From positions 1-64,000 of the forward strand of contig JAGTQM010000003.1 in assembly GCA_018396755.1 (NCBI GenBank): a stretch of 64,000 bases of DNA, given 5' to 3'. Below the pieces are notes generated by a model. That model was not told the origin of the DNA and did not search any database. It saw only the letters and a list, made by a program, of their open reading frames with translations. Below are positions 21,355 to 49,142 of the stretch, piece after piece (positions within the stretch are counted from its first letter, which is position 1; every line of letters begins with the position of its first letter). The DNA is from Candidatus Bathyarchaeota archaeon. Its GTDB lineage: Archaea > Thermoproteota > CALKCG01 > B24. Both the position numbers and the translations under genes were made by a program.

Positions 21355-21356
21355 TA

Positions 21357-22436: not shown

Positions 22437-22447
22437 AGGCGAATAGA

Positions 22448-23746: not shown

Positions 23747-23765
23747 TTTATTGTGGTGATACATT

Positions 23766-24731: not shown

Positions 24732-24744
24732 CCGGGCGGTCATC

Positions 24745-25446: not shown

Positions 25447-25452
25447 GGGAGC

Positions 25453-26553: not shown

Positions 26554-26557
26554 TGAT

Positions 26558-27310
26558 GTGTTCAAGGAAATTAGGAATGTGATCGCCTTCCTCACAGCGA
26601 TTCCAGTCGGCATGAGCCAAGACTACCTAACCGACGCAGCCAACTGCATGTACCTATTTCCTTTGATAGGCGCATTGATGGGGCTATTAGCAGGCACACT
26701 CGCCTGGTTACTTCTCAATTTTCTTGATGTTTTAATAGTCGGAATTTTAACCGTAGGCTTCATTTCACTAATTACTGGTCTTCATCATGCAGATGGGCTA
26801 CTGGACTTTGGGGACGGTTTAATGTATCAGGGGCCTCCTGAGGAAAAAATCAAAATAATGCATGACCAACAGACCGGTGTAGGCGGTTTTGCGCTTGGCT
26901 TAGTCACGTTTTTAGCAACAGCTTTCTGCATAGCAAAACTTAATCAAAACTCTGTTGTTCAAAGCTTAGTTGTGTGCGAGACTTCTGCTAAACTTGCCAT
27001 GGTGGTTATGGCTTGGCTCGGAAAATCTGCACATGAAGGAATGAACATGTATTTTGTAAACGCCATGCATGGTCGGTATCGAAACATTCGCCTAATGGCC
27101 GCATTATCCATTACGTTTGGCGTAGCATGGCCCCTTCTGGAAATATTAGGCTGCGTCGTCGTGATCTCAAGCATAGTTTCGACTTTAGTACTCATTGGAA
27201 TTTCAAACAGGCATTTCAAAGGAGTAACAGGCGACGTTTTCGGAGCTGGAAATGAGCTTGCCAGACTATTTTCCCTCCTGACAATATTGGTGGCGAGCAG
27301 ATGGGTGTAA
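26558..27310 (+). CDS. cobS: Adenosylcobinamide-GDP ribazoletransferase (cobalamin synthase)
   Basis: The 250-residue membrane protein shows the CobS pattern: IRNVIAFLTAIPVG at the start, the HHADGLLDFGDGLM catalytic motif near residue 76 with its acidic Mg-binding cluster, and IKIMHDQQTGVGGFAL near 104. Several hydrophobic helices follow, and FKGVTGDVFGAGNELARL near 223 is the conserved C-terminal GDxxGA motif. It joins AdoCbi-GDP to alpha-ribazole (phosphate) at the membrane, the penultimate step. The start is GTG, and its last 10 bp overlap cobY. Confidence 0.95.
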   Translation: MFKEIRNVIAFLTAIPVGMSQDYLTDAANCMYLFPLIGALMGLLAGTLAWLLLNFLDVLIVGILTVGFISLITGLHHADGLLDFGDGLMYQGPPEEKIKIMHDQQTGVGGFALGLVTFLATAFCIAKLNQNSVVQSLVVCETSAKLAMVVMAWLGKSAHEGMNMYFVNAMHGRYRNIRLMAALSITFGVAWPLLEILGCVVVISSIVSTLVLIGISNRHFKGVTGDVFGAGNELARLFSLLTILVASRWV

Positions 27311-28041
27311 CTGCTTTATTAATGGCTGGTGGTAGAGGCTCAAGGCTTAAGGCTCTAGGAGAAAAGCCTTTGATAAAAGTAGGCGGCAAACCCATGATTG
27401 AACGGGTCCTAGAGGCTTTAAAAAGCTCTAGAAAACTGGATAGCATAATTGTAGCTGTAAGCAAGCATACTCCAAAAACAGCTATATTTGCGAGAAAACA
27501 CTCTCTAAAGGTCTTGCAAACTCCTGGAAGGGGCTTCTGCTTAGATGCAAAATACGCCATTGAAAAATTAAAGCTAGGAACCACTTTAACAATATGTGCA
27601 GACCTCCCCCTAATCACAAGCGAATTCATAGACAAAGCTATAACACATTACGAACAATGCAAAAAACCTGCATTAACAGTCATGGCTCCATTAGAAATTT
27701 ATAGGAAGTTCGGACTAAGTGCGGACTATATTTTCAATGTTAGGGGGAAAGCCCTGGTTCCAATAGGCGTAAATGTAGTTGATGGAAAAAGTATAAGAGA
27801 AAAAGAGTTAGATGAGGAAATCCTCGTTATAGATGATGTAAAAGTCGCTGTAAACGTCAACACCATCCAAGATATAAGAATAGCTGAACTTATGTTACAA
27901 ACCCCTCCTAAGGCTCAAGCCGGAGAGGTAAGGATACAACGTGTAAGCCACGACAGGCAATGGAGTCCTATCCTTCGCAAGAAAGCCAAGGCCGACAGCC
28001 AGTCTAATGTAGAGGTAGACTCTAACAAAACCTTAAGTTGA
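27301..28041 (+). CDS. cobY: GTP:adenosylcobinamide-phosphate guanylyltransferase, archaeal CobY
   Basis: The nucleotidyltransferase signature LLMAGGRGSRLKALGEKPLIKVGGKPMI occupies residues 6-33, followed by LTICADLPLITSEFID near 98 with the metal-binding Asp. Archaea use CobY, a stand-alone guanylyltransferase, in place of the bacterial kinase/transferase CobU, and the operon position between cobS and cobZ confirms the role. The last 40 residues after about 205 (KAQAGEVRIQRV onward) are polar and probably disordered, longer than most CobY tails. The start overlaps the cobS end. Confidence 0.92.
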   Translation: MGVTALLMAGGRGSRLKALGEKPLIKVGGKPMIERVLEALKSSRKLDSIIVAVSKHTPKTAIFARKHSLKVLQTPGRGFCLDAKYAIEKLKLGTTLTICADLPLITSEFIDKAITHYEQCKKPALTVMAPLEIYRKFGLSADYIFNVRGKALVPIGVNVVDGKSIREKELDEEILVIDDVKVAVNVNTIQDIRIAELMLQTPPKAQAGEVRIQRVSHDRQWSPILRKKAKADSQSNVEVDSNKTLS

Positions 28042-32441: not shown

Positions 32442-33431
32442 TTAAAATACTGGTATTATCTTTTCTCCTATCATTCTTATGGATTTGATGACGTCTAAAC
32501 CTATTGGTGAACCAACTACAAACTGGGTTACACCCGTCTCTAACACTTGCTCTATCTTATCTATGCATTGTTTTGGAGTACCCGCTATTGAGAAAGCCTC
32601 GATCATGTCACTTGTAACGTTCTTAAATGCTCTACCGAACTTACCCTGTACCAACGCATCTTTTATAGCTTGAGCTTTCTCAATATCTATCCCATGCTTC
32701 TCTAAAACCACGTTTGGGCTTCCTCCTACTATGAAAGCCACAACTGGTATAGCCGCTTCAATAGCTTTAGCCTCCTCCTCCGCTATGGAGAAGCTTGTAT
32801 ACGCAGCTATGTCTAGATCTTCAACTCTTCTATTCGCCTTAGAAACACCCTCTCTTATTCTAGCAACTGCTTCCTTCAAATCTTTAGGATGGGATGCGTT
32901 AATTAAAACGCCATCGCCTATTTCTCCCGCAAGTCTAAGCATTGCTGGGCCTTGAGCACCTATGTACACAGGGATTTTAGACGGAGATTTATAATTTAAT
33001 CTAGCGCCTCTAATTTTAAATACATCTCCATCTAAATTTACAGTTTCGCCAGATGTTAAAGTTCTGATTATTTCCACAGCTTCTTTAACATATGCTAATG
33101 GCTTCTCAAACTTTAAACCAATGGCTGATAGAGTTACATAATCCCCAGCTCCTATACCGCATACAACCCTATTGGGGGCTACTTCAGCTAGACTGGCGAT
33201 AGCAGTCGCCGTGAAGACCGGATTACATACATATGGGTTTGTTACACCAGTTCCAAGCTTTATACTGTTAGTGTAATTCGATATCAATGTTAACATTACG
33301 TAGACATTCCTATTGTTATAGTGGTCGGTTATCCAAACGTGGTCAAATCCGGATTTCTCAGATTCTATCGTATAGTATACAATTCTCCAATATGCGTCTC
33401 TCGGTACAAACTCTATTCCAAATTTAACCAT
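32442..33431 (-). CDS. mer: F420-dependent methylenetetrahydromethanopterin reductase
   Basis: The 329-residue protein is a luciferase-like barrel with the Mer pattern. It starts FGIEFVPRD, then FDHVWITDHYNNRNVYVMLTLI near residues 30-50, LGTGVTNPYVCNPVFTATAIASLAE near 59-84, VVCGIGAGDYVTLSAIGL near 89 and SKIPVYIGAQGPAMLRLAGEIGDGVLINA near 151-180. Mer converts methylene-H4MPT and reduced F420 to methyl-H4MPT, the methyl donor for the corrinoid protein of CODH/ACS about 8 kb away. This links the two parts of the Wood-Ljungdahl pathway; other carbon-branch genes are not in the window. A 92-codon gene precedes it by 13 bp. Confidence 0.93.
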   Translation of the reverse strand: MVKFGIEFVPRDAYWRIVYYTIESEKSGFDHVWITDHYNNRNVYVMLTLISNYTNSIKLGTGVTNPYVCNPVFTATAIASLAEVAPNRVVCGIGAGDYVTLSAIGLKFEKPLAYVKEAVEIIRTLTSGETVNLDGDVFKIRGARLNYKSPSKIPVYIGAQGPAMLRLAGEIGDGVLINASHPKDLKEAVARIREGVSKANRRVEDLDIAAYTSFSIAEEEAKAIEAAIPVVAFIVGGSPNVVLEKHGIDIEKAQAIKDALVQGKFGRAFKNVTSDMIEAFSIAGTPKQCIDKIEQVLETGVTQFVVGSPIGLDVIKSIRMIGEKIIPVF

Positions 33432-35912: not shown

Positions 35913-36030
35913 CCTCCATTAAACACCTCCATGCAATCGAACTTACTTCAATGAGCCTTCTCTCTCCAACTTAAAAACTCATACATAAAGTTAAATGTTG
36001 GTTTTTCGTCTAGCTTGTTGAGGAATGTCC

Positions 36031-36813
36031 ATGAAGATTTGCGTAGCTGGTAAAGGAGGCGTAGGTAAAACGTTGGTCGCAGGTACGCTTGCTAGGCTTT
36101 ATGCTAGAGATGGTTTTGAGGTTTTAGCTGTTGATGCAGATCCAAATCCAAACTTGGCGGTGTCAATAGGGATACCGGCTTCAGATGCTTTTAAGATAAC
36201 TCCCCTGCTGCGCGACTCAAGATTGATAGAGGAGCGGACGGGCACAGCCCCAGGGTCTGGATGGGGTGTGATATTTAATATTGCCCCCGACGTTAGAGAC
36301 ATAGTTGATAGATTTTCGATAAAAGGTCCAGACGGTGTTAAACTTCTCGTAGTCGGCTCCATCGACTACGGCGGTGCTGGATGCTTCTGCCCTGAAACCG
36401 CTTTCCTGAAAACACTCCTAGCCTACATAGTGGCTAGGAGGCGGGAAGTTGTTCTAGTAGACTTGCAAGCCGGTCCGGAACCTTTTGGAAGAGGCGTTGC
36501 AAAACACGTAGATGTCGTAGTAGTCGTTACAGACCAATCTCTCAAATCTATAAATACCGCTGAGCGGGTCTTCCGCCTTTCCAAGGATTTAAACGTTAAA
36601 GGAATAACAGCCATCATAAACAAGGTTACCAATCCCTCAGAAGCCCCCATAGCTACACTAGAAGAGATTGGCTTTGAAGTATTAGGCATTATACCCTTCG
36701 ACGAGTTGATAGTAGAAGCGGATGAAAAGGGGTGGGCTCTGATAGATTATAGAGCGGAATCCAAAGCCCTTGAGGCGCTTAGGAAAATCTATAGTAGGCT
36801 TTCAGCCATTTGA
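36031..36813 (+). CDS. cooC: CooC-type CODH nickel-insertion ATPase (copy 1)
   Basis: The MinD/ParA-like ATPase has the deviant Walker A KGGVGKT near residue 7, the VLAVDADPNPNLA motif near 33 and the GGAGCFCPETAFLKTLL segment near 113. The CxC there is the nickel-binding pair at the dimer interface in CooC. VVLVDLQAGPEPFGRG near 143 is the Walker B region. CooC loads nickel into the C-cluster of carbon monoxide dehydrogenase. The gene is convergent with cdhB and so lies next to its client, although on the opposite strand. The ATG at 36031 is 7 bp from GAGG and is preferred to the ATG at 36025. Confidence 0.88.
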   Translation: MKICVAGKGGVGKTLVAGTLARLYARDGFEVLAVDADPNPNLAVSIGIPASDAFKITPLLRDSRLIEERTGTAPGSGWGVIFNIAPDVRDIVDRFSIKGPDGVKLLVVGSIDYGGAGCFCPETAFLKTLLAYIVARRREVVLVDLQAGPEPFGRGVAKHVDVVVVVTDQSLKSINTAERVFRLSKDLNVKGITAIINKVTNPSEAPIATLEEIGFEVLGIIPFDELIVEADEKGWALIDYRAESKALEALRKIYSRLSAI

Positions 36814-36827
36814 AGGAGTAATTGGAC

Positions 36828-37361
36828 TTAGGCTTTAAGCTTATTTACCAGGGCTTCTAGGAACTGCTCCCACTCGCCAATATTCATATTTCTGAGGCTC
36901 CAAGAAGCATTTGGCTGGTAGAACCTGTCTAGGCTTATAGTTTTAACGGATTGAGCGAAGTTTTTAAGCCCTGTCAAGATCAGCCACGTCATATAATACG
37001 GGAGACCTATAAATACCATTGTTTTATAGGCACCTTTTCCGTCTAAACCCATCCACTCCGGGTCTGGTACTCTATGCGCTACCTCCATCGGCGAAATCCA
37101 AGTGGCATTTGTCAGTCTACTCTTAATTTTAGCGTAAGCCATAGAAGAAGTAGCGATATGTGCATCTACAGCTTCAGCCACGTCTACTATGTAGTCTAGA
37201 AGCGAACGTTTAGAAAGGACTGTTGAAACGCCATTGCCACATACTACTAGTATTCTCCCACCCTGTTTGAGGAGCTCTGCGGCGAGCTCAGGCTTCTCAA
37301 TTATTGTTGCTCTCCTAGTGCCTGGGACTTCCGCTTTCATCCAAGGCTCGCTACGCCACAA
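36828..37361 (-). CDS. cdhB: CODH/ACS epsilon subunit
   Basis: The 177-residue protein matches the archaeal CdhB epsilon subunit: an N-terminal PELAAELLKQGGRILVVCGNG, then ATSSMAYAKIKSRLTNATWISPMEVAHRVPDPEWMGLDGKGAYKTMVFIGLPYYMTWLILTGLKNFA. The DHS-like Rossmann fold binds beside the alpha subunit and may hold a flavin or channel electrons. The gene starts with TTG 2 bp after the cdhA stop, with AGGAGGAGGG placed about 6 bp ahead. That placement favours the TTG over the ATG at 37340. It ends 14 bp from the convergent cooC. Confidence 0.92.
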   Translation of the reverse strand: MWRSEPWMKAEVPGTRRATIIEKPELAAELLKQGGRILVVCGNGVSTVLSKRSLLDYIVDVAEAVDAHIATSSMAYAKIKSRLTNATWISPMEVAHRVPDPEWMGLDGKGAYKTMVFIGLPYYMTWLILTGLKNFAQSVKTISLDRFYQPNASWSLRNMNIGEWEQFLEALVNKLKA

Positions 37362-37363
37362 GA

Positions 37364-39706
37364 CTATTCCCTCCTCCTTATAAGCCTAGGTAGTAAAGTC
37401 GGGTCTGGTATCGTCTTCTCTTTCCAATCTTTCTCCTTTAGAAGGGCTAGTATTTCATCTTTCATTGTTATGGGTATGTCGGCGGGTGTTCTAACGAAGA
37501 GGTGTATGTCTTCTGGGAGGGCGTTGTAAAACTTCTTGTATAAGTCTGCGTAGTGTGAAAGCTTTATGGCTCTACCTTTAGTAGTGTCGTTCGGCCTCAT
37601 ACATAGCTTCGCTATCATAACAATGGCCTCTTCCTTCGTCTCAGCCATGTAGAATAGGTGTTCAGGAGCTGGTTCACAGTAGACTTTCTCACCTGTTCTA
37701 GCGTTGTAGATAACCCAGTCTTCTTCTCTATCGCTACGACCTAACAGTGCTCTCCTATACTTAGAACCGTGCGGTCCAACTATGACTGGAACTCCAAGCC
37801 TCCAAAATCCTGAGGCTATTGATGCTGCCTTCTGGCTCATAGCACCCCAAGCGACACCGACAGCTCCAACCCTATTCAACACGTAATCTGCTATTTCCTC
37901 GTAATTAGCCCTCAAGGGTCTCCTCGCAAATATATTCGCTATTTTGATGGCGGCGCCCGCTATATGCGCATTTGATACACATGAGCCTACGTTTACAACC
38001 CCTCCGGCGTCAAAGCTCCCTGGAAATCTCTCGTAAAGTGTCTTCCCCTCTTCGTCCTTATACATGCCTAGTGTCATAGCGGCGCATCCAGATGCGAGTA
38101 TTATGTAGCGTCTCTTGGCGAACTCTTCAGACATCTCGTAAACGTCTCTTCCACCATATGCGTAATTTGAACACCCTACGAAAGCTATGACACCCGGTAT
38201 TTCACCGAAAACTATCGGTCCGCCTACAGCTCTTATCTCAGTGTCTTTTATAGCTCCTCTTCCAGCTCTTACTTTAAACGTCTCCTTCTCGAACACATCG
38301 TCAGCCCAGACTATCATACTGTGTATTGGAAGCTTCGCCCTACACACGCCTTCACACTTCACGCATCCAATACACTGTTCATACAGGCCGCTCAATATTG
38401 ATAGGTCTCCTTTAGCCGCGGCACCCATAGCATCCATTATGGGGAGGTTGTTGGGACACGTCCTCACACACTCCATACATTTGATGCATCGTTTAGCGTA
38501 CTCTATTATGGCTTCTCTGGAAATAGGCTTCTCCTTATACTGCCTTCTCTTCGGAGCTAAAGCAATAGCAGCTTTAACAGCCACTTCTCCAACCTTCTCT
38601 GCGTCGAAAATTAAAACTCCATCTTCTCTCCTTTCAACCAAGTCTTTCACGACTTCATCTACAGGGTCTTCTGTACGGTCTCTCAGACCTTGACAATTCT
38701 TCTCACTCGTAGCTATGAAGACGGCGTCCACTTTCCTAGCTTCATCTATTAAATTCGTCTTTATACACTGTTCATCGACAACGACAACGTCCGGCAGTCC
38801 CGACCTTATATAGCGAACCTGCCATGAGATGGGTCCGATTATCTTCGTTCTAGGATTGTATCTTGCAGCATCATGGGCAGTGCAACATAAACCTGTAACT
38901 TCAACTTGACCTAGTAAACCGTTTTCAATAAGATAGTCGATTATACCAGCTGCAGATGGAACATTATGTCCCACAACCATTATAACTGGTTTAGATTTAT
39001 CAACGATGCCAAATCCTGAGTCGATTAATGGGGCATCGGGGTCGGACTTCGGAAAACCCATAACAGATATTTGCGCTATATCGGCTACTTCCATGGCTAA
39101 ATGGTCCATCATACCGACGTGAAGTACTTTAGATTCAAAGTCTAAAGCATCGCCCTCTTGACCAGTATGCGTAGAGGCAAGTAAATGTATTAGCTGATTA
39201 TCCACGTAGCTTAACACGTCTTCAAGATCCCTCAGAGTTCTAGGCTTTATACCTGTAACAAGCCTAACTATGGGTGCTTCAACACCGACCCCCTCACCCA
39301 AGTCTAACGGAATATCTCTTCCATACCTCTCGATGAGATATTCAACTAGATGTTTAGCATGGCTTGTATGGGTTGCTGCTCCTATACAGCAGGCTAGTAG
39401 CACTATTCTGGATTGTTGGGCAGCCATATCTAAGCCGCATGCTCCACGCTTGCCCATGGATAAGTCGCACTTTCCAAATGTGCATAGACAACATAATTCG
39501 CAAAAAGGCATATAAAACGGTCTATAGCGTTTGAGGAGAGTGTAATCCCAACTTCTGAGGTCTTTTATTGAAGGCATGGGGGTTGGACCTATGGGTTCTT
39601 CAAATTCTTCATAGATTATACGGTCGATGGATATTTCAACATCTCGAAGCACTCCAAGCGTAGTAGTAGCTTCTTTTAATTTAATGTAGAGGTCTTTCTT
39701 ACTCAC
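37364..39706 (-). CDS. cdhA: CODH/ACS alpha subunit (Ni-Fe carbon monoxide dehydrogenase)
   Basis: The protein has the Cys array for the B and D clusters (CELCCLCTFGKCDLSMGKRGACG, near residue 68). Two ferredoxin motifs are specific to archaeal CdhA (CIKCMECVRTCPNNLP near 407 and CIGCVKCEGVC near 444). C-cluster ligands lie in ASGCAAMTLG, VVNVGSCVSNAHIAGAA and HVGMMDH. It oxidises CO or reduces CO2 and feeds CO to CdhC. GTG at 39706 follows GGTGAG by 4 bp and gives a usual N-terminus; a TTG at 39739 would add 11 residues. It is divergent from cdhC over about 100 bp and followed by cdhB. Confidence 0.95.
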   Translation of the reverse strand: MSKKDLYIKLKEATTTLGVLRDVEISIDRIIYEEFEEPIGPTPMPSIKDLRSWDYTLLKRYRPFYMPFCELCCLCTFGKCDLSMGKRGACGLDMAAQQSRIVLLACCIGAATHTSHAKHLVEYLIERYGRDIPLDLGEGVGVEAPIVRLVTGIKPRTLRDLEDVLSYVDNQLIHLLASTHTGQEGDALDFESKVLHVGMMDHLAMEVADIAQISVMGFPKSDPDAPLIDSGFGIVDKSKPVIMVVGHNVPSAAGIIDYLIENGLLGQVEVTGLCCTAHDAARYNPRTKIIGPISWQVRYIRSGLPDVVVVDEQCIKTNLIDEARKVDAVFIATSEKNCQGLRDRTEDPVDEVVKDLVERREDGVLIFDAEKVGEVAVKAAIALAPKRRQYKEKPISREAIIEYAKRCIKCMECVRTCPNNLPIMDAMGAAAKGDLSILSGLYEQCIGCVKCEGVCRAKLPIHSMIVWADDVFEKETFKVRAGRGAIKDTEIRAVGGPIVFGEIPGVIAFVGCSNYAYGGRDVYEMSEEFAKRRYIILASGCAAMTLGMYKDEEGKTLYERFPGSFDAGGVVNVGSCVSNAHIAGAAIKIANIFARRPLRANYEEIADYVLNRVGAVGVAWGAMSQKAASIASGFWRLGVPVIVGPHGSKYRRALLGRSDREEDWVIYNARTGEKVYCEPAPEHLFYMAETKEEAIVMIAKLCMRPNDTTKGRAIKLSHYADLYKKFYNALPEDIHLFVRTPADIPITMKDEILALLKEKDWKEKTIPDPTLLPRLIRRRE

Positions 39707-39739
39707 TAAACTCACCTTTTTTATCGAGAAACACTTCAA

Positions 39740-39811: not shown

Positions 39812-41236
39812 TTGTCTATGTTTCAAGATATACCAGTTGACGTAGGTATTGCCTACGAGGGGGAGCGGATTAGAAGAGCTGAAATGTATGTTGAGTTCGG
39901 TGGACCAGACATCAAATTTAAATTTGAACTTGCGAGAGTTAGAAGACCTGAAGAGGTTAAAGATGGCGGGATAATAATTATTGGTCCAGATATTAAAGAT
40001 ATTCCAGAGGGCAGTAGTGTACCGTTAGGTATGCTTGTTGAAGTTGCAGGTAGCCAACTTGAAGAAGAGCTTGAAGGCATTATAGAGCGTCATATTCACG
40101 AGTTCACCAATTATGTGCATGGGTTTATGCATTTAAATCAACGTTACGACATATGGTGTAGGCTTAGTAAGGAGGCTTTTAAGAAAGGATTTAACAGCCT
40201 CATCCACCTGGGGAAAGTCTTGATTAGACTCTACAAGGCGGATTTCCCAATAATTGAGAAAATTCAGGTAACTTTCATAACGGACCCTAAGGAAGTTGAA
40301 CGAATGTATTATGAAGCTCTTAAAATATATGAGGCTAGGGATGCGAAAGCTAGAGGTCTTAAAGACGAAGGCGTCGACGAGTTTTACGGGTGTACTCTCT
40401 GTCAATCTTTCGCTCCAACACACGTATGTGTAATTACCCCCCAACGGTATTCAAACTGTGGAGCCATAAGTTGGTTTGACGGCAGGGCTGCGTCGAAAGT
40501 AGACCCCAAGGGTCCAATATTTAGAATACCTAAAGGTGAATGTGTAGATCCAATGAGAGGAGAGTACTCTGGGGTCAATAAGGTTGTACAAGAGAAATCC
40601 CTTGGAGCAATTAAACGCGTTCATCTATACACTGCTTTCGGCTATCCACATACCAGCTGCGGATGTTTTGAAGCTATAGTCTTCTACATACCGGAAGTTG
40701 ATGGGTTCGGGGTAGTACATAGAGATTTTAAGGGCGTGGCGGTAAATGGGTTGAAGTTTTCAACGATGGCTGATACGACTGGTGGAGGTAGACAGGTAGA
40801 CGGCTTCCACGGAATATCCATAGAATATATGCGTTCCCCTAAGTTTCTGATGGCGGATGGCGGATGGGAGCGGGTCGTCTGGACTCCAAAAGCAGTATAT
40901 GAAAGAGTTAAAGACTTCATACCTGAAAAATTCAGAGATAAGGTAGCTACAGATGAAGATGTTAAAACCGTAGATGAACTTAGGGAATTTTTGAAGGCTA
41001 AGGGGCATCCAGTAGTCGATCGGTGGAAGCCAGTAGAGGCTGAAGTTAAACCAATTGAAGTTAAGGCTGAAGGGGCTACTGGAGTAGCATTGCCTCAGCA
41101 GGCGCAAGCTGCAGTTTTGGAGGGCGTATCTGTTTCTGGCGTTCCTACAACATCTGTGGGATTTAAGATAACTTTGAAAGGTGCTAAGATAAACATCGAC
41201 AAGGTTATAATTAGACGTAGCGGTTCAACAAGCTAG
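39812..41236 (+). CDS. cdhC: Acetyl-CoA synthase, CODH/ACS beta subunit
   Basis: The 474-residue protein carries the A-cluster ligands: CTLCQSFAPTHVC near residue 193 and TSCGCFE near 281, the spacing known for archaeal CdhC. It assembles acetyl-CoA from CO, CoA and the methyl group of the corrinoid protein. After about residue 395 a flexible tail appears, with Lys/Glu/Val repeats (VEAEVKPIEVKAEG), an Ala/Gln patch and a final strand-rich segment GFKITLKGAKINIDKVIIRR. That tail may dock partners. TTG at 39812 is fixed by AGGAGGT 8 bp upstream; the ATG at 39818 is too far. cdhD follows by 11 bp. Confidence 0.95.
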   Translation: MSMFQDIPVDVGIAYEGERIRRAEMYVEFGGPDIKFKFELARVRRPEEVKDGGIIIIGPDIKDIPEGSSVPLGMLVEVAGSQLEEELEGIIERHIHEFTNYVHGFMHLNQRYDIWCRLSKEAFKKGFNSLIHLGKVLIRLYKADFPIIEKIQVTFITDPKEVERMYYEALKIYEARDAKARGLKDEGVDEFYGCTLCQSFAPTHVCVITPQRYSNCGAISWFDGRAASKVDPKGPIFRIPKGECVDPMRGEYSGVNKVVQEKSLGAIKRVHLYTAFGYPHTSCGCFEAIVFYIPEVDGFGVVHRDFKGVAVNGLKFSTMADTTGGGRQVDGFHGISIEYMRSPKFLMADGGWERVVWTPKAVYERVKDFIPEKFRDKVATDEDVKTVDELREFLKAKGHPVVDRWKPVEAEVKPIEVKAEGATGVALPQQAQAAVLEGVSVSGVPTTSVGFKITLKGAKINIDKVIIRRSGSTS

Positions 41237-41247
41237 GGGGTGTAGTT

Positions 41248-42480
41248 ATGGACTCTACTAAAGCTCCTAAGAAGATGTTTGAGACGGTGGTGTTTGAAGC
41301 TCTATCTCAGCTTTTTCAGAATCTTAAAGATGCAGAAATAGAGCTTCAGAACATTAGCATTGAGGCGGATGAAATAGAATTAGAGCCTGTGGTTAGAGCG
41401 GTTTTAGCACAAATACCCGCGGCTAAAATAGCTGAAAAACCCGCTGTTAAGCGTCTTCCAGAGAAGCTTTTAGAAGCTGAATTCACTCCTCCCACGAGCG
41501 AATACCCGGGCCATGTGGTGGAGGTTAAAATAGGAGCTACTAAGAGTGAAGGTGGTACTAGAAGCAAAAGTGTTATCCTCGGCGGTGAAGTCACTCCGGC
41601 TTTATACGTATTTGACGGTTTAAACCCCCACCCTCCTGTTGTATCGATCGACATATTTGATACTAGAATACCTCTGGCTAAAGCCGTTAAAACAGAAGTT
41701 GAAGACGTTTTAAACGACCCGGTTGAATGGGCTAAGAAGGCAGTTCATAAGTTTGAAGCAGAAATTGTCAATTTACACTTAGTAAGTATAGATCCTCTCC
41801 TCAACGATACTTCGCCGGCTGAAGCGGCTAAGACCGTTGAAAACGTCTTACAGGTTGTTGACGTTCCAATATGCGTCGGTGGTTGTGGTGATCCTTTGAA
41901 AGACTTGAAGGTTTTTGAGAAAGTGTGTGAAGTTGCAGAGGGTGAACGTATACTGATAAACTCTGTGACTTTAGACATGGATTATAAAAGACTTGCAGAA
42001 GCTGTTAAGAAGCATGGTCATGCCATCATAGCGTTCACATCTATGGATATGGATATGGCTAGAGAACTCAATAGGAAACTGTATGAAGTGCTTCCTAGGG
42101 AAAGCATAGTTATCGATACTACGACTGCAGCCTTAGGCTACGGGTTAGACTATGCTTTCACAGTTATGGAGAGGACGAGGTTGGCTGCTTTAATGGGCGA
42201 CGTTGAACTTCAACATCCACTATCTTCAGGTACGACTAATGCTTGGGCTGCCAGAGAAGCTTGGATAAAGCTCGATGAATCTAAATGGGGACCTAGAGAG
42301 CTGAGGGGGCCAATCTGGGAGGTTGTAACAGCTCTTACGCTTTTACTAGCTGGTGTAGACTACTTCATGATGATGCATCCTTTGGCTGTTAAAACGACAA
42401 AGCGGGTGATTGAGAGGTTTACCTATGGAGGGGTGTTCAATTCACCTAGATATTTGAGCTGGGCGTCGTTGGACATTTAA
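41248..42480 (+). CDS. cdhD: Corrinoid iron-sulfur protein small subunit, CODH/ACS delta
   Basis: The 410-residue protein has the TIM-barrel delta subunit: VVEVKIGATKSEGGTRSKSVILGG near residue 90, LYVFDGLNPHPPVVSIDIFD near 118, IVNLHLVSIDPLLND near 172, VPICVGGCGDPLKD near 208 and IVIDTTTAALGYGLDYAFTVMERTRLAALMGD near 290. An N-terminal 80-residue helical extension precedes the barrel. With the gamma subunit it forms the corrinoid protein that carries the methyl group to CdhC. The gene sits between cdhC (11 bp) and cdhE (2 bp). A shorter paralogue occurs further down the operon. Confidence 0.94.
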   Translation: MDSTKAPKKMFETVVFEALSQLFQNLKDAEIELQNISIEADEIELEPVVRAVLAQIPAAKIAEKPAVKRLPEKLLEAEFTPPTSEYPGHVVEVKIGATKSEGGTRSKSVILGGEVTPALYVFDGLNPHPPVVSIDIFDTRIPLAKAVKTEVEDVLNDPVEWAKKAVHKFEAEIVNLHLVSIDPLLNDTSPAEAAKTVENVLQVVDVPICVGGCGDPLKDLKVFEKVCEVAEGERILINSVTLDMDYKRLAEAVKKHGHAIIAFTSMDMDMARELNRKLYEVLPRESIVIDTTTAALGYGLDYAFTVMERTRLAALMGDVELQHPLSSGTTNAWAAREAWIKLDESKWGPRELRGPIWEVVTALTLLLAGVDYFMMMHPLAVKTTKRVIERFTYGGVFNSPRYLSWASLDI

Positions 42481-42497
42481 AAGTGGAGGTGTATAAG

Positions 42498-43922
42498 TTG
42501 GCTAGAAGTTTAAGCCCATTGGAGGTTTACAATCTCCTACCTAAGACAAACTGCGGGAAATGTGGTGAAGCTAACTGTCTGAGTTTTGCAACGAGGCTTG
42601 TAAACCTCGAAGTTGAAATTGAAAAATGTCCTCCCTTGGTTGAAGAGGTGAAATATCGGGAGAACTACTTTAAACTCAAAGACCTCTTGAAGCCTCTAAT
42701 CAGAGAAGTGTTGATAACCAGAGGAGGGAAAGCCGTTAGAATAGGTGGAGAATACGTCCTCTATCGGCATGAGTTCACCTATAGGCGTCCAACAGCCATA
42801 GCCATAGACGTATCTGACAATATGACGCCCGAGTCTATAATCGACCGCGTTAAGCAGATAGAATCGCTATCCTACCCGTATATCGGTAAAGAGCTTAAGC
42901 TAGACTTAATAGCCGTCAGGTCTGTTACTGGTGATCCTGAGAGTTTCCGTAAAGCTGTTAGAGTAGTATTGGGCAGTTCAAGCCTCCCCATTGTGCTCTG
43001 CTCGTTAAACCCAGACGTTTTAAAGGCTGGTCTTTCTGAAATGCCAGGTGATAAGCCACTCATATATGCTGCTACTGTAGACAACTGGAGTCAGATGGTT
43101 GAATTAGCCTTAGCATACGATTGTCCGCTTGTCGTCTCGGCTCCAAATAATCCCGTTACACTTAAAAGTCTAGTTAAAACTTTGCTCGAATGCGGTTTAG
43201 AAGACTTGGTTTTAGATCCTGGTTGTATGGGTGGGGAAGGCCTCTACGATACGATTGTTAACTTCACTATGCTCCGTAAGGCTGTCTTCAGGGCGAACGA
43301 TTCCCTCTTGGGTTTCCCTCTTCTGGGGGCTCCAATATCAGTCTGGCTTGAGAATGGTAGGGCTTTAGATAGGAAGTGGGAAGAGTGCTACTTGGCGGGT
43401 ATGCTTATAGTTAGGTTTGCGGATGTCCTCATCATACATAGTTTAGATGGTTGGGTTATCCTGCCATTGCTGATACTTAGAGACAACATATATACAGACC
43501 CTAGGAAGCCTGTTTCGGTTAAACCTGGGCTTTACAAGATAGGTACACCGAATGAAAGTAGCCCTGTTATGTTCACATCGAACTTCGCATTGACGTACTA
43601 TACGGTCTCTTCAGATATACAGGCGGCTAAAGTAGATGCATACCTCATAGTTGTCGATACTGAGGGGCTTTCAGTAACCTCAGCTGTAGCCGGGAGAAAA
43701 CTCACGGCTGATAAAGTTGCTGATGCTGTTAAAGAGTCGGGTATTGAAAACCTAGTTAAACACAGGTATCTTATAATTCCAGGTAGAGCTTCAAAACTAA
43801 GCGGTGAAATCGAAGAGGCTACTAATTGGAAGGTTCTAGTAGGACCACTAGACTCTTCGGAAATCTCTAAATTCTTAAGTGAAAACTGGTATGGGAAGAA
43901 GCTTTGGGAGGCTGGAAGATAG
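42498..43922 (+). CDS. cdhE: Corrinoid iron-sulfur protein large subunit, CODH/ACS gamma
   Basis: The protein of about 474 residues begins with the iron-sulfur domain (LPKTNCGKCGEANCLSFATRL, then EKCPPL) at residues 13-46, which holds a low-potential 4Fe-4S cluster that reactivates cobalt. The barrel follows, and the C-terminal corrinoid-binding domain shows NFALTYYTVSSDIQ and VVDTEGLSVTSAVAGRKLTADK. I place the start at TTG 42498, 6 bp after GGAGGTG; the GTG at 42483 overlaps that ribosome site. The stop at 42920-equivalent position 43922 is 1 bp before the next start. It pairs with CdhD. Confidence 0.93.
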   Translation: MARSLSPLEVYNLLPKTNCGKCGEANCLSFATRLVNLEVEIEKCPPLVEEVKYRENYFKLKDLLKPLIREVLITRGGKAVRIGGEYVLYRHEFTYRRPTAIAIDVSDNMTPESIIDRVKQIESLSYPYIGKELKLDLIAVRSVTGDPESFRKAVRVVLGSSSLPIVLCSLNPDVLKAGLSEMPGDKPLIYAATVDNWSQMVELALAYDCPLVVSAPNNPVTLKSLVKTLLECGLEDLVLDPGCMGGEGLYDTIVNFTMLRKAVFRANDSLLGFPLLGAPISVWLENGRALDRKWEECYLAGMLIVRFADVLIIHSLDGWVILPLLILRDNIYTDPRKPVSVKPGLYKIGTPNESSPVMFTSNFALTYYTVSSDIQAAKVDAYLIVVDTEGLSVTSAVAGRKLTADKVADAVKESGIENLVKHRYLIIPGRASKLSGEIEEATNWKVLVGPLDSSEISKFLSENWYGKKLWEAGR

Positions 43923-43923
43923 A

Positions 43924-44679
43924 GTGATAATTTCAGTAGCGGGTAAAGGTGGGACAGGTAAAACCACTATAGCAGTTTTAATCTTAAAAACTCTGATCGA
44001 GGAGACGAGTAAGACAATCCTCTTCGTAGACGCAGATCCGTCTACGAATGCTCCAGTTGTTCTAAACATACCGATTAAGAAGACGGTTGGCGAAGTAGTA
44101 GAGGAGTTCAGAAAAACGGTCTTAGATACTACGGAGCTTGGCGTCGACAAGAGTAGGATAGTTGAGAAATGGGTTATGGAAGTTCTGATGGAATCTCCTA
44201 GATTCGACTTGTTAGCCATGGGTCGAGGTGAAGGAGAAGGATGCTACTGCTACGTCAACTCTGTTTTAACGTCAATATTAGACAAGCTGGCTAGTAACTA
44301 TGATGTAGTTATAATGGATATGGAGGCTGGTTTAGAGCATATAAGCCGTAGGACAGAGAGAGACGTAGACATTATGTTTGTTGTAACAGACCCCTCTAGG
44401 ATGAGCCTTGAAACGGCTAAGAGGATTAAAGAGCTAATACCGGAAGTACATGTTGAAATAAGGAGACTCTACATCATCGGCAATAAGATCCCACATGGAG
44501 AATTTGAGAGCTACGCTAGTAAAGTCGGAGAATTCGATCTACAGCTTATTGGAATAGTCCCTCCAGATCCAGAAATACTAAATTTCAGCGTGAAGGGTTT
44601 GTCTCTTCTAAACATACCTGATAATTCACCCTCCTATGAAGCCGTTAAAAACATATGCCGCAAGGTCAGGTTAATTTAA
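43924..44679 (+). CDS. CooC-type ATPase (copy 2) inside the cdh operon
   Basis: From GTG at 43924 the protein opens MIISVAGKGGTGKTTIAVLIL, a deviant Walker A, followed by ILFVDADPSTNAPVVLNIP. A CxC pair lies in GRGEGEGCYCYVNSVLTSIL near residue 102, with VVIMDMEAGLEHISRR as Walker B. It is a second CooC-like paralogue, closer to the group found inside archaeal cdh operons next to cdhE. It may serve the ACS A-cluster (AcsF-like nickel loading) or corrinoid protein reactivation rather than the C-cluster; this is inference. A frame extension back to 43879 overlaps cdhE and is not favoured. Confidence 0.85.
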   Translation: MIISVAGKGGTGKTTIAVLILKTLIEETSKTILFVDADPSTNAPVVLNIPIKKTVGEVVEEFRKTVLDTTELGVDKSRIVEKWVMEVLMESPRFDLLAMGRGEGEGCYCYVNSVLTSILDKLASNYDVVIMDMEAGLEHISRRTERDVDIMFVVTDPSRMSLETAKRIKELIPEVHVEIRRLYIIGNKIPHGEFESYASKVGEFDLQLIGIVPPDPEILNFSVKGLSLLNIPDNSPSYEAVKNICRKVRLI

Positions 44680-45644
44680 TTAGGAGGCTTTTTACACTGT
44701 CCCTCCCTCTTCCAATAGAATCCTATAGAGGTGTTATTGCAAAAGTAAAAATAGGCGCTACAAAATCCGAAGGGGGTTCAAGAAGCTACTCTACTACAGT
44801 CGGCGGAGCTAGGACACTACCCTTCTACACATTTGAGGGTTTAAACCCTCCACCTGTACTGGCACTTGAAGTTTACGACCATTTAGTCAGTCCTCCAGTC
44901 GGCGTTATGGAGGCTTTCGGCGACGTAATAATGGATCCAGTCGAGTGGATTAGGGTTGTGGATAGGTTCAACCCGGACATTATAAATTTAAATGTAAGAT
45001 CCATTTCTCCCTTGACTCTAAATAGGAGCGTTAAAGATGCTATGCATCTATTGGAGGAAGTTTTACAGGCAACTGGCCGTCCTCTGATGATTACGGGTAT
45101 AATGGACCCAATTCACACGGAAGACATATCTAGAAACACTGAGTTTTTAAAGCAGGCCGCTGAATGTTTTAAAGGCGAAAGGCTTCTCATAGGTCCTGTA
45201 ACAGTTGAAGCTTATGAGACTGTTGCTGAAGCTGCTTTAACAAATGGTCACAATCTACTGGCCAAGTCAAATATGGATGTTAACCAGGCCATTAGGCTAA
45301 ACGAGCTTCTCTCGGCTAAAGGCGTTTCAACCGACCGTATCGTCGTAGATGTTACGACTGGGGCATTAGGCTATGGGATTGAATATACACTCTCCACGAT
45401 GGAGAGGCTTAGACTTAGGGCTTTACAAGGGGATAGAATGGCTGGAAGCCCCATGATATTCTTCGTTTCTGAAAACGTCTTCATATCGGAGTTTAGAGAA
45501 CCTCCTCTAAATCTCTCAATCTATGAGACTGCGGCTGCCGTTGCAGGTTTAATGTCTGGAGCAGACTTGGTGTCGCTATTCTACGTAGAAAGTTTACACA
45601 TGGTTAGATCGCTTTTAAGTGAATTTCCTTGGGGAGGCGGTTGA
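44655..45644 (+). CDS. Second CFeSP delta-subunit paralogue, short form
   Basis: The 329-residue protein aligns with CdhD over the barrel: KVKIGATKSEGGSRSYSTTVGG near residue 30, YTFEGLNPPPVLALEVYDH, IINLNVRSISPLTLNRS, and IVVDVTTGALGYGIEYTLSTMERLRLRALQGD near 232. It lacks the 80-residue N-terminal extension of CdhD. The ATG at 44655 overlaps cooC2 by 25 bp; a Shine-Dalgarno AGGAGG at 44682-44687 sits inside the frame, 9 bp before a CTG, so translation may start there. The binding determinants appear conserved, so a functional corrinoid protein subunit is likely. Which methyl donor or acceptor it serves is unknown. Confidence 0.85.
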   Translation: MPQGQVNLIRRLFTLSLPLPIESYRGVIAKVKIGATKSEGGSRSYSTTVGGARTLPFYTFEGLNPPPVLALEVYDHLVSPPVGVMEAFGDVIMDPVEWIRVVDRFNPDIINLNVRSISPLTLNRSVKDAMHLLEEVLQATGRPLMITGIMDPIHTEDISRNTEFLKQAAECFKGERLLIGPVTVEAYETVAEAALTNGHNLLAKSNMDVNQAIRLNELLSAKGVSTDRIVVDVTTGALGYGIEYTLSTMERLRLRALQGDRMAGSPMIFFVSENVFISEFREPPLNLSIYETAAAVAGLMSGADLVSLFYVESLHMVRSLLSEFPWGGG

Positions 45645-47001
45645 AATCTCAGAGAAAAAGCTTAGCCCAATGGATCTATATAAGCTCCTGCCTAAGACAA
45701 ACTGTGGAAAATGTGGATCGCCGACATGTATGGCTTTTGCTTTTAAACTGGCCCAAGGAGCTGTAGCAGTCGATAAATGCCCATTCCTTACAGATGAAGC
45801 TAAACGTGCTCTAATAGGTTTAACAGCTCCCCCTATAGCTGTAGTTGCTATAGGTCGTAGAAGTAGAGAGGTTAAAGTAGGTGGAGAGCGTGTATCCTTC
45901 AGACATGAGGATAAATTTTACAATGAGCCGGCTATAGCTGTGGAATTAAACGACCTTACAGATGCAGACGCCGTTAAGACAACTCTGAAGACACTGAGAA
46001 GGTATGAAGTTGAAAGAATGGGTCAAACTTTAAAGATAAACATGTTGGCACTTAGAAACCTCTCAAGTGAGAATGATGCTTTCATAAGGCTGGTGGAGAC
46101 CGTTAGAGGCGTGGAGTATCCGTTAATAATCTCCACTGAAAACCCCACGTTGGCTGGTAGGGCTTTAGACATCATCAGGGATGAACATCCTCTCTTACAT
46201 GGTGCATCTCTGAGAAATATCACTATGATGGCTATGCTGGCTAAGAGGTTCAACTGTCCCATTTCTATAAAAGCGTCTGACTGGGGGGAGTTTTTATCCT
46301 GTGTTGATAGGCTTAAGGGGTTAGGCTTCTCGGAAATAGTCTTACAACCTCCCGGCGATACACTTAAACAGCTCATGGAGAATTTGACGATTATACGTAG
46401 ACTTGCCGTCGACAAGAAATTCACTAAACTCGGATATCCCACTATAGTCTTCTCGAGCGATGTTAAATCCAATGTTCCAGAACATTTGACGGTCTCAGCA
46501 TTACTGGTTCGATATGCGAGTATAATCGTAGTTAAACCTGAAGTCTTGCCGCTTATACGTCCAGTGATGCTTCTCAGACAGTCGATAATGATGGATCCGA
46601 GGGCTCCGATATCCATTAAGCCAGGCCTGTATACGATAGGTGAGCCTAGTGAAAACAGTCCAGTACTATTGACAACCAATTACGCTTTAACATTCCACAT
46701 ATTGAGAAGTGACTTGAAAAATCAAAATGTGAACTGTTATCTCTTAGTCGTAGATACGGGGGGTCTCTCAGTAGCCTGTTCTATAGCTGGCAATAAGCTC
46801 AAACCAGACTCTGTTAAGCAAATGGTTGAAGAGACGGGCTTAGAAGCTAAGGTAGGCCATAAAATGCTTGTGATCCCAGGTAGAGCGGCTAAACTTGCTG
46901 GAGAAATTGAAGATATAACCGGCTGGAGGGTTTTAATAGGCCCATTTAACTCGAAGGATATAGCAGACTTTCTCAGAAAACATAATCTTATTGAGCAGTA
47001 G
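45619..47001 (+). CDS. Second CFeSP gamma-subunit paralogue
   Basis: The 460-residue protein keeps the full gamma architecture: a 4Fe-4S domain (LPKTNCGKCGSPTCMAF, then DKCPFL) at residues 23-55, the barrel and the corrinoid domain with NYALTFHILRSDLK and VVDTGGLSVACSIAGNKL. It differs from CdhE across most of its length, so the copies are old rather than recent duplicates. It starts with GTG, overlaps the delta paralogue by 26 bp and ends 14 bp inside the convergent AOR gene. With that paralogue it could form a complete second corrinoid protein. Confidence 0.88.
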   Translation: MNFLGEAVEISEKKLSPMDLYKLLPKTNCGKCGSPTCMAFAFKLAQGAVAVDKCPFLTDEAKRALIGLTAPPIAVVAIGRRSREVKVGGERVSFRHEDKFYNEPAIAVELNDLTDADAVKTTLKTLRRYEVERMGQTLKINMLALRNLSSENDAFIRLVETVRGVEYPLIISTENPTLAGRALDIIRDEHPLLHGASLRNITMMAMLAKRFNCPISIKASDWGEFLSCVDRLKGLGFSEIVLQPPGDTLKQLMENLTIIRRLAVDKKFTKLGYPTIVFSSDVKSNVPEHLTVSALLVRYASIIVVKPEVLPLIRPVMLLRQSIMMDPRAPISIKPGLYTIGEPSENSPVLLTTNYALTFHILRSDLKNQNVNCYLLVVDTGGLSVACSIAGNKLKPDSVKQMVEETGLEAKVGHKMLVIPGRAAKLAGEIEDITGWRVLIGPFNSKDIADFLRKHNLIEQ

Positions 47002-48733
47002 CCTCTTTAACGATTTCTTTTATCTTTGCTTCCGCGACCGTTAAAGCCTTTTTAACGTCTTCAGGGCTTATTATACCGTTTGCAGTGGCCGTTTCGAAGA
47101 TTCTCTTTGGGATTTTAAGGTTTTGAAATTTAAAACCCTCTTTGAACTTAAACTTATACTTCAAACCATAAGCTACCCTTCCAATTTTTTCAAGACTTTC
47201 GCCGTCGTAGTTAAAACCTATCGTATTCAAAGCTTCTAATACCATATGCTTATCGTATACATCTCTTGCGAATAGGCATACGCCGCAGCATTCCAATACG
47301 CATCTCCACGTCTCTTCCTTTAAGAGTGCTTCCACCGCGTTAACAGGGTTTATGGTCGACCCTAGCAGTTTCTGATCTAAACTGTATCCGGCGTTACTTA
47401 AATGGCTGTGTCTCGCTCCTATAGCCGTACCTATTATGAAAGCCAGTCCAGTATGGTAGCCTGCTAAACCATTCCCTCCAATTGCGACTAAAAACTCTTC
47501 GCCAAGGTTTTTGTATGGTTTCCCTTGGGCCATAGACAAGTAGAACTCGTTCGGCATAGTCATAATATGCTTAATCATTTCAATGTATTTCTCCGCGTTT
47601 CCCCACTTGGGTTCAACCATCGTCTCATCTAAGCCTATTAATCCTTTTTCATATGCTTCAGTAGCCCATGCGAGCATAGTTCCAGTCATCATAGCGTCTA
47701 ACCCGTATCTATCGCAGACGGCTCTAAGTTTAAGTACGTCCATAGGGTTTCCAACGCCTAGGTTTGAGCCCAACGCGTATATCGGCTCATAGTCGTATCC
47801 GACTTCTATAGACTCGACTTCATGCTCATCCGCGAAGAAGCTTCTCAATATGACTACGTGTTTACACCCTATTGGACATAGGGGGCAGGTATTCTTCCTA
47901 GTTAGGAGGTTGTCTGCAAAATATTCTCCTGAAATCTGCTCAGCATAGTCGAAATATCCAAGTTTAAAGTTCATCGTTGGAAGTGCTTTAATCTGGTTTA
48001 GAGTTAGAACGTTCTGAGGTGTTCCAAGGTCGTGGTATTTACGCATCTTACCGCTTTTAACAACCTCCTCATAGATTTTCTCGAATACCCTCTTATACGC
48101 ATCTAGGTTTTTAACAGATATTTCACCGCCTCCTGTGATGCGTACGGCTTTAAGGTTTTTAGCACCCATTACTGCACCCAAGCCCGTCCTTCCGAAGAAG
48201 TTATATCCGTCTACGAGAACGTTAGCATAGTAGACGAAGTTTTCTCCAGCAGGTCCTATAGCTACAATCGACTGTAAGCCACATGAGCTTGACTCACTCA
48301 ATGCCATGATCGTGTTTAAACCGCCCATCTTCTTTAGAGAAGATGCACCGTTGACTTTAACTCCCCCATTATCTCTAATATCAATCCACACCAGTTTTGA
48401 AGAAGCCCCTATGATAACAACGGCTTCGTACCCGGCCAGCCTTATTGCTGCCCCGAGTTTTCCACCGGCATGGCTTTCACCTAGGTTTCCAGTTAACGGC
48501 GATTTGAACATGGCGATTGTCTTTGAACATGCAGGGTAAAGACCTATGAACGACCCCGACGCCAGTATGATTGGATTTTCAGGTGCAAAAGGGTCTACGC
48601 CGTCTGGGCACAGCTCATTCAGCAGGTTTATTGCCAGTCCGGAGCCTCCTATGCACTTATCGACAAGTTCTCGTCTATTTTCAACCCAGCTTAAGCCATC
48701 GGTCAAGTTTATGAAGAGTATATCTCCATTCAT
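46988..48733 (-). CDS. Aldehyde:ferredoxin oxidoreductase, tungsten type
   Basis: The protein of about 581 residues has the AOR N-terminal domain (LVDKCIGGSGLAINLLNEL, PIILASGSFIGLYPACSKT, SPLTGNLGESHAGGKLGAAIRLAGY, GRTGLGAVMGAKNLKAV). It also has the 4Fe-4S cluster ligands CPLCPIGCKH near residue 280 with a distal Cys in CCGVC near 495. The bis-pterin tungsten site lies in the GLDAMMTGTMLAWA region. AOR oxidises aldehydes to acids with ferredoxin. A ferredoxin gene precedes it and overlaps it. ATG at 48733 lies 9 bp after GGTGAGG; upstream in-frame codons reach 48784. It may link acetate or amino-acid metabolism to CODH/ACS. Confidence 0.92.
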   Translation of the reverse strand: MNGDILFINLTDGLSWVENRRELVDKCIGGSGLAINLLNELCPDGVDPFAPENPIILASGSFIGLYPACSKTIAMFKSPLTGNLGESHAGGKLGAAIRLAGYEAVVIIGASSKLVWIDIRDNGGVKVNGASSLKKMGGLNTIMALSESSSCGLQSIVAIGPAGENFVYYANVLVDGYNFFGRTGLGAVMGAKNLKAVRITGGGEISVKNLDAYKRVFEKIYEEVVKSGKMRKYHDLGTPQNVLTLNQIKALPTMNFKLGYFDYAEQISGEYFADNLLTRKNTCPLCPIGCKHVVILRSFFADEHEVESIEVGYDYEPIYALGSNLGVGNPMDVLKLRAVCDRYGLDAMMTGTMLAWATEAYEKGLIGLDETMVEPKWGNAEKYIEMIKHIMTMPNEFYLSMAQGKPYKNLGEEFLVAIGGNGLAGYHTGLAFIIGTAIGARHSHLSNAGYSLDQKLLGSTINPVNAVEALLKEETWRCVLECCGVCLFARDVYDKHMVLEALNTIGFNYDGESLEKIGRVAYGLKYKFKFKEGFKFQNLKIPKRIFETATANGIISPEDVKKALTVAEAKIKEIVKEATAQ

Positions 48734-48734
48734 T

Positions 48735-49142
48735 TTAAACATCCTCACCGTAATATAGGACCTCGTGTGGACAGAACTTTGCACAAACTCCGCACTCTAT
48801 GCATATTATCGGTCTCTTACGCTCGTCGTCCCACTGTAGGGCTTTCAACGAACATGCATTTAAGCACGGTCTGTTTTCACACTTCTCACACTTTTCAGGG
48901 TTTAGAAGCTCTACTCCTCCACCACTCCTCGGCTTTAAAGCCTCATATGGACATGCTGAAGCACAGTCCGGCTCTTCACATCCAGAGCATACTGTTACTT
49001 TAAACCCAACTCCACTCCTTGAAATCCTTATGGCTGAATGCTTAACCGATAAGACACCTCTTAACTCTCTAGAGCATACGAAGACGCATGTGGCGCAGTT
49101 CATACATCGGTCTTGGTTCTTCACTATGAGCTTTATAGGCAT
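48735..49142 (-). CDS. Polyferredoxin-type 4Fe-4S electron-transfer subunit of the AOR
   Basis: The 135-residue protein contains four groups of cysteines in ferredoxin arrangement: CMNCATCVFVC near 13, CSGCEEPDCASACP near 52, CEKCENRPCLNAC near 84 and CIECGVCAKFCP near 113. Together these could hold four 4Fe-4S clusters. Such HycB/AorB-like subunits shuttle electrons from AOR to ferredoxin or to another partner. It starts with ATG and ends 3 bp inside the AOR frame, so the two are translationally coupled and almost certainly one complex. Confidence 0.9.
   Translation of the reverse strand: MPIKLIVKNQDRCMNCATCVFVCSRELRGVLSVKHSAIRISRSGVGFKVTVCSGCEEPDCASACPYEALKPRSGGGVELLNPEKCEKCENRPCLNACSLKALQWDDERKRPIICIECGVCAKFCPHEVLYYGEDV

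Follow-up and report, generated by a model that had tools for sequence, protein, structure and literature searches.

Why should an operon for carbon monoxide dehydrogenase/acetyl-CoA synthase (CODH/ACS) encode two sets of corrinoid iron-sulfur protein (CFeSP) subunits? This question is raised by contig JAGTQM010000003.1 of a Candidatus Bathyarchaeota archaeon, whose first 64,000 nucleotides form the window analysed here. The contig belongs to a metagenome-assembled genome (MAG; G000) of 1.98 Mb that is 89% complete and has Bathyarchaeota archaeon B24 (G003) among its relatives. All four PF03599 genes of this genome lie within the window, where a divergent cdhA-cdhB is followed by cdhC-cdhD1-cdhE1-cooC2-cdhD2-cdhE2. 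The initial annotation described the last three genes as a CooC-like ATPase and paralogues of CdhD and CdhE, an assignment confirmed by open reading frames (ORFs) and family matches:

43924..44679 (alternative start 43879), + strand: CooC2, a MinD/CooC-type P-loop ATPase (ORF, Pfam ParA/CbiA class)
44655..45644, + strand: CdhD2, second CFeSP small (delta) subunit, short form (PF03599)
45619..47001, + strand: CdhE2, second CFeSP large (gamma) subunit with a 4Fe-4S motif and a corrinoid domain (NF003195, PF03599, PF04060)

These genes overlap one another on the same strand (44655 versus 44679; 45619 versus 45644), which is the arrangement expected for a single transcript. CdhD2 and CdhE2 are predicted to form a second CFeSP heterodimer (CFeSP2) whose subunits are both TIM barrels and in which CdhE2 carries the 4Fe-4S cluster and the cobamide. 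The best explanation that we can offer, to which we assign a probability of about 0.45, is that CFeSP2 is an ancient standalone, undocked CFeSP that acts as a mobile methyl carrier beside a docked CdhDE1. The identity of the genes, the antiquity of the pair, its co-inheritance, its cofactor motifs and its missing delta extension are all evident from sequence comparison, and the second CFeSP is real, old and probably working.

Each of the three ORFs matches its family strongly, and none is a chance frame. CdhE2 matches PF03599 (300 bits) and the iron-sulfur family PF04060 (52 bits), both above cut-off, and is a full-length member of the gamma equivalog NF003195 (493.7 bits versus a cut-off of 306). 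CdhD2 matches the PF03599 TIM barrel with 109.3 bits (cut-off 24.8) and falls under every NCBIfam delta cut-off (219.4/488, 211.9/280 and 185.5/252.9, with the others likewise lower). The nearest PDB chain of CdhD2 is 4djd_D (E 1.4e-49), and CdhE2 matches 4djd_C (E 8.8e-94). An AlphaFold (AF2) model of CdhD2, with a predicted local distance difference test score (pLDDT) of 83.4, has 4djd_D as its top structural match (Z 39.8, 2.9 Å over 307 residues). The corresponding CdhE2 model (pLDDT 79.2) is closest to 2h9a_A (Z 39.9, 4.8 Å over 377 residues), and the match extends through residue 454, taking in the corrinoid domain. The domain arrangement of CdhE2 is uncertain because the predicted template modelling score of this model is 0.60.

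The cofactor residues of the gamma subunit are well preserved. As the initial annotation proposed, the paralogue is complete and has its cluster cysteines (C29, C32, C37 and C54), and these are present in each of the 11 second copies examined. Conserved columns were defined as those common to 56 other archaeal rows (including bacterial-type Halobacteriota) and 20 bacterial rows. By this measure CdhE2 keeps 43 of 50 gamma columns, among them every cysteine and, in the corrinoid domain, the TTN..LT stretch, which we take to belong to the corrinoid site. Most universal columns of the C-terminal corrinoid domain are retained, and the loss of cobalamin-contact residues that the annotation had named as a counter-indication is thus not seen.

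Age and distribution of the second pair

The two pairs differ widely, with identities of 112/320 (35.0%) for CdhD1 and CdhD2 and 164/455 (36.0%) for CdhE1 and CdhE2. Gamma trees were built from 87 rows (quick) and 47 chosen rows (careful), and a delta tree from 85 rows (quick); all are unrooted. In the 47-row tree, the second gamma copies of the window, B24 (G003), a congener (G001) and two further Thermoproteota MAGs (L035 and L036) form one clade (bootstrap/Shimodaira-Hasegawa-like approximate likelihood ratio test, SH-aLRT, 99/96). It falls outside the clade of canonical archaeal CdhE and outside the bacterial-type clade, each of which is supported at 100/99. Because the second copies sit on long branches, their outward position in the trees may partly reflect long-branch effects. 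The first gamma copies of the same five genomes are also monophyletic (98/99), so that the pair was probably co-inherited. The delta tree groups the same five second copies (SH-aLRT 96), whereas it disagrees with the gamma tree on the second deltas of G110, G220 and f19, which lie nearer to canonical archaeal deltas (89).

Recent duplication of CdhDE1 can be ruled out, as the initial annotation had argued. Forcing CdhE1 and CdhE2 of the five genomes together is rejected by the approximately unbiased (AU) test on the 47 rows (p 7.3e-13), and phylogeny recovers a deep separate clade where a lineage-specific recent copy had been held up as the alternative. Transfer of the gamma subunit from bacteria is likewise unsupported. 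Besides the tree position, CdhE2 has the archaeal state at seven of nine gamma sites that split archaea from bacteria and the bacterial state at none, which argues against such a transfer. A phmmer search hinted at a bacterial-type pair by placing bacterial AcsC closer to CdhE2 than to CdhE1, but mean identities to the bacterial rows disagree (33.9% for CdhE2, 35.8% for CdhE1). The second pair appears to have been inherited over a long period alongside the normal CODH/ACS operon.

Among 300 Thermoproteota genomes, 71 have CdhE (E <= 1e-60), and nine of these 71 have two (G000, G001, G003, G005, G006, G030, G044, G110 and G220). These nine together with the MAGs L035 and L036 make up the set of 11 second-pair genomes. 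The gene order of the window recurs in B24 and L036; L035 has no CooC at that place, and in G001 the order is spread over two contigs in a manner consistent with the window. In G110 a distance of 56 kb separates the second pair (L135) from the main operon, and the pair adjoins a same-strand gene for an aldehyde:ferredoxin oxidoreductase (AOR). The B24 congener G002, which is 95% complete, has no PF03599 protein, compared with four in its relative G003. Separately, locus L195:3191-19500, in a genome sampled from the phylum to which a Halanaerobiales MAG belongs, carries a bacterial AcsB/C/D set beside an archaeal-type CdhA-CdhB-CdhC-CdhE(-D).

The ATPase gene has a different distribution. Its ORF begins with GTG at 43879 or 43924; the latter is preferred because it is preceded by GGGAGG and yields a 251-residue product, the length of the B24 orthologue (L054). 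The translation contains the P-loop GKGGTGKT and a CxC motif (CYC), presumably a feature of CooC-class nickel insertases, and the NCBIfam scan gave no match of CooC2 to a curated cooC model. A role in nickel or cofactor insertion for CODH/ACS is probable from these motifs. The initial annotation treated this gene as part of the second set. CooC2-type genes occur in 13 of the 21 single-pair Thermoproteota loci fetched (six at 245-268 bits), and in the Archaeoglobi locus L041 one lies between cdhC and cdhD. The ATPase is therefore ordinary cdh equipment, and a dedicated partnership with the second pair is ruled out.

The delta extension, the CdhC tail and a possible docking role

The remainder of the operon provides the canonical subunits with which the second pair can be compared:

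36025..36813, + strand: CooC1, first CooC-type ATPase, preceding the divergent cdh genes (ORF, Pfam)
36828..37361, - strand: CdhB, CODH epsilon (PF02552, 76.8 bits)
37364..39739, - strand: CdhA, CODH alpha (TIGR00314, 1187 bits)
39812..41236, + strand: CdhC, ACS beta, archaeal form without an A1 domain (TIGR00316, 661 bits)
41248..42480, + strand: CdhD1, canonical archaeal delta with an acidic N-terminal extension containing IELQNISI (NF003375, 527 bits, above cut-off)
42483..43922, + strand: CdhE1, canonical archaeal gamma (NF003195, 572 bits)

The conserved delta core is preceded by 28 residues in CdhD2 and by 90 in CdhD1. The reported shortening of CdhD2 thus stands, with about 60 residues missing given the chosen start rather than the 80 first proposed. 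Canonical archaeal deltas have 72-130 residues before the core, compared with 11-40 in bacterial and bacterial-type deltas and 0-40 in second copies (the sequences of L139 and L052 are truncated at contig ends). CdhD2 therefore has no N-terminal extension of the archaeal kind.

The ACS proteins divide along the same line. Archaeal forms lack the A1 domain and carry a C-terminal tail of 53-115 residues, whereas bacterial-type forms have A1 and no tail; L195_14737 is an exception with neither, and the L148 ORF runs through a stretch of N. The tail of CdhC in the window has 71 residues, is basic and contains the motif ITLKGAKI. To compare adjacent genes we began with 85 delta rows, dropped two that are cut by contig ends and set aside 32 without a full-length ACS within 4.2 kb, leaving 51. 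A tail-bearing ACS is paired with a long CdhD in 37 of 37 cases and an A1-type ACS with a short CdhD in 14 of 14. The motif at the end of the tail (for example, IILKDAKI) is basic and present in 34 of the 37 tails, whose last 35 residues have a mean charge of +4.7, and an acidic look-alike (for example, IELEDVEI) occurs in 32 of 45 delta extensions (mean charge -6.3). In L202 and L205 the tails are strongly acidic (-17 and -16) and the deltas begin with a lysine-rich stretch, and L210 breaks the motif rule.

From this co-occurrence and charge pattern, the CdhC tail and the CdhD extension probably dock CFeSP on ACS in archaea. An apparent natural CdhC-CdhD fusion in L148 was considered as further support and dropped, since the joined ORF crosses the N. 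In Biester et al. 2024 (PMC11474084), the ACS extension is described as having no known function and as structurally unresolved. Within the PubMed Central papers searched, we recognized no report of a second archaeal CdhDE pair or of a CdhC-CdhD docking motif. Three Halobacteriota loci (L208:5244-9377, L209:10164-14297 and L212:2301-6365) encode an ACS of 1354-1377 residues with about 940-965 residues before the CdhC domain, and each is possibly a CODH-ACS fusion.

Methyl supply, electron source and competing explanations

Three further genes of the window bear on how CFeSP2 might work:

46988..48784, - strand: AOR-family tungsten aldehyde:ferredoxin oxidoreductase (PF01314/PF02730; nearest PDB entry 1aor, E 3.8e-63)
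48735..49142, - strand: FdB, a ferredoxin-type 4Fe-4S protein, AOR partner (several Fer4 families)
32442..33431, - strand: Mer, methylene-tetrahydromethanopterin (H4MPT) reductase (NF002619, 450.6 bits versus a cut-off of 276)

In the mechanism that we favour, the CdhD1 extension together with the CdhC tail would fasten CdhDE1 into the large complex, where it would serve the resident CODH/ACS. CdhD2, like bacterial CFeSP, lacks its half of this proposed docking arrangement, so CFeSP2 should be free, and the cell may possess both a fixed methyl carrier and a mobile one. CH3-H4MPT would methylate CFeSP2, either directly or with an MtrH-type transferase in between, and CFeSP2 would exchange the methyl groups with CdhC and possibly other acceptors. 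The neighbouring AOR and FdB may supply low-potential electrons for reactivation of the cobalt. The docking role of the extension, as well as the mobility, donor, acceptor and electron source of CFeSP2, are what we infer from gene content and sequence comparison.

The usual methyl donor in archaea, CH3-H4MPT, is the product of Mer, whose gene lies some 2.6 kb upstream of cooC1, and MtrH genes are present in the genome. CH3-H4MPT is consequently the simplest methyl supply for CFeSP2. No Pterin_bind methyltransferase of the AcsE/MeTr class (PF00809) was detected in this 89% complete genome at E 0.001, with one candidate scored. A second MtrH-family gene of the genome (L220, G000:C16:4742-5601) occupies two frames and contains an in-frame TGA. 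The window also holds a cobamide uptake and salvage cluster (19921-28041) encoding a periplasmic binding protein, FecCD, an ABC ATPase, CobT, CobS and a CobY-like protein.

The AOR and FdB genes converge on the end of the operon, and AOR overlaps the 3ˊ end of cdhE2. AOR and FdB are found in eight of 11 second-pair loci versus none of 21 single-pair loci (p 1.6e-5, uncorrected for relatedness); FdB occurs in the same eight loci as AOR, L135 of G110 included. This linkage suggests AOR-FdB as an electron source for the second pair. RACo/AcsV-type activator genes adjoin the cdh operon in the single-pair Thermoproteota loci L057 (6684-8540), L147, L148 and L149.

Several observations weigh against a mobile, AOR-reduced carrier. 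The AOR counts are not phylogenetically independent, AOR lies beside cdhE1 rather than the second pair in G005 and G006, and the second pairs of G030, G044 and G220 have no AOR neighbour. The motif as searched is absent from three of 37 tails and 13 of 45 delta extensions, and both co-occurrence and charge follow the archaeal/bacterial split and so do not represent independent events. The genome has a single ACS, CdhC (one PF19436 match in a genome 89% complete), and a free CFeSP2 would thus need CdhC to accept it. Finally, CdhD2 keeps 27 of 33 conserved delta columns and, at six delta sites that split archaea from bacteria, has the bacterial state at two and neither state at four. Its C-terminal changes, at the W290 position in all five clade members and at the H310 and P311 positions in the window and the G001-B24 relatives, are specific to the second-delta family of the window. 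With these alterations, some function may have been lost.

The strongest competitor, which we nevertheless regard as unlikely, is that the second pair is the surviving half of a bacterial-type ACS module (A1-domain ACS, short CdhD, CdhE and CooC). The lineage would have lost the second ACS, and CFeSP2 would now serve CdhC or be in the course of being lost. Such an ACS of 690-692 residues adjoins a short CdhD and CdhE in G005 and G006 (L050, L051), and one of 698 residues is near the same operon in G220 (L136). G030 and G044 have a similar ACS beside the main operon, with the second pair at its own locus. A single clade of all 11 second gamma copies is compatible with the AU test on 47 rows (p 0.219), and the one ACS of the window genome would be as expected. 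In the free tree, however, the clade of the window stands apart from those of f19/G220 and f3. In addition, the pair has long been retained without a second ACS (the ACS search within the clade covered the window genome), and its gamma subunit is well conserved.

Next in order, and improbable, is a dedicated entry point for methyl groups from methylated compounds, as proposed in the initial annotation; a substrate methyltransferase and a corrinoid protein would pass methyl groups to CFeSP2, bypassing H4MPT. In L224:15981-18015 (G061), MtmC-like and MtmB-like genes are convergent (tail-to-tail) with the second-pair cdhE2, and the MtmB-like ORF has no in-frame stop, with Leu where PDB 1l2q has pyrrolysine. 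The window genome has one MtxC-type corrinoid protein (PF02607) in addition to its MtrH-family genes. Against this proposal, no substrate methyltransferase (MtxB) was evident among three proteins scanned beside that corrinoid gene, and G110 has the second pair and no PF02607 protein. The association of PF02607 with second pairs is 10/11 versus 8/14 other genomes (Fisher p 0.09), MtrH is present in 15 of 15 genomes searched irrespective of the second pair, and known systems route methyl groups via H4MPT or tetrahydrofolate. Two methyl entry points are possible, as the annotation suggested from the two CFeSPs, and entry from methylated compounds is hinted at by L224.

A still less probable role for CFeSP2 is in anabolism, as methyl donor to, for instance, a core methionine synthase of the MesB/MesC type; this would split biosynthesis from the acetyl-CoA pathway. 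Price et al. 2021 (PMC7857596) propose CFeSP as the MesB/MesC donor and report that in some methanogens mesB apparently shares an operon with acsC-acsD. The window genome encodes a PF01717 core protein, but its match is weak (26.9 bits, under the NCBIfam cut-offs) and its gene is unlinked to the second pair. PF01717 is found in six of nine second-pair genomes and four of six others tested (p 1.0), as well as in G002, despite the absence of PF03599 proteins there. It is very unlikely that CFeSP2 is an isoform, either redundant or suited to particular conditions (temperature, cobamide or redox state), that performs the task of CdhDE1 within the same complex. The shared operon and conserved cofactor motifs speak for such an isoform; the different architecture, without the extension, and a deep divergence that has persisted as long as the clade itself speak against it.

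Comparison with known systems

The archaeal CODH/ACS is viewed as a single complex that has one methyl carrier built in. The presence of an old second carrier of the standalone type within this operon suggests that Bathyarchaeia can divide the delivery of methyl groups. The coexistence of an extended and a short CdhD in a single genome offers a natural contrast for how ACS and CFeSP hold together. The wider scheme would have two methyl carriers per ACS in some Thermoproteota, with CdhDE docked by charge-complementary tags and a tagless CFeSP2, reduced by AOR and ferredoxin, handling a separate methyl flux. Taken as a whole this scheme is doubtful; if true, the C-terminal extension of archaeal ACS would gain a function.

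Among known systems, the archaeal acetyl-CoA decarbonylase/synthase gamma-delta component (CdhE/CdhD) resembles the second pair in gene order, gamma motifs, archaeal-state gamma residues and location in the same operon, whereas the second pair lacks the delta extension and lies outside the canonical clade. Bacterial CFeSP (AcsC/AcsD; PDB 2h9a, 4djd) shares the fold, the short small subunit and probably the standalone state. It differs in that the second pair is outside the bacterial clade (100/99) and that the window genome has neither a PF00809 match nor an A1-type ACS. Modules of A1-type ACS, short CdhD and CdhE in Halobacteriota and Thermoproteota (L198, L201, L206, L207, L050 and L136) also contain an archaeal CFeSP with a short delta, which in some genomes constitutes the second pair. 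Unlike these modules, the pair described here occurs in a genome without a second ACS and forms a separate clade in the free tree.

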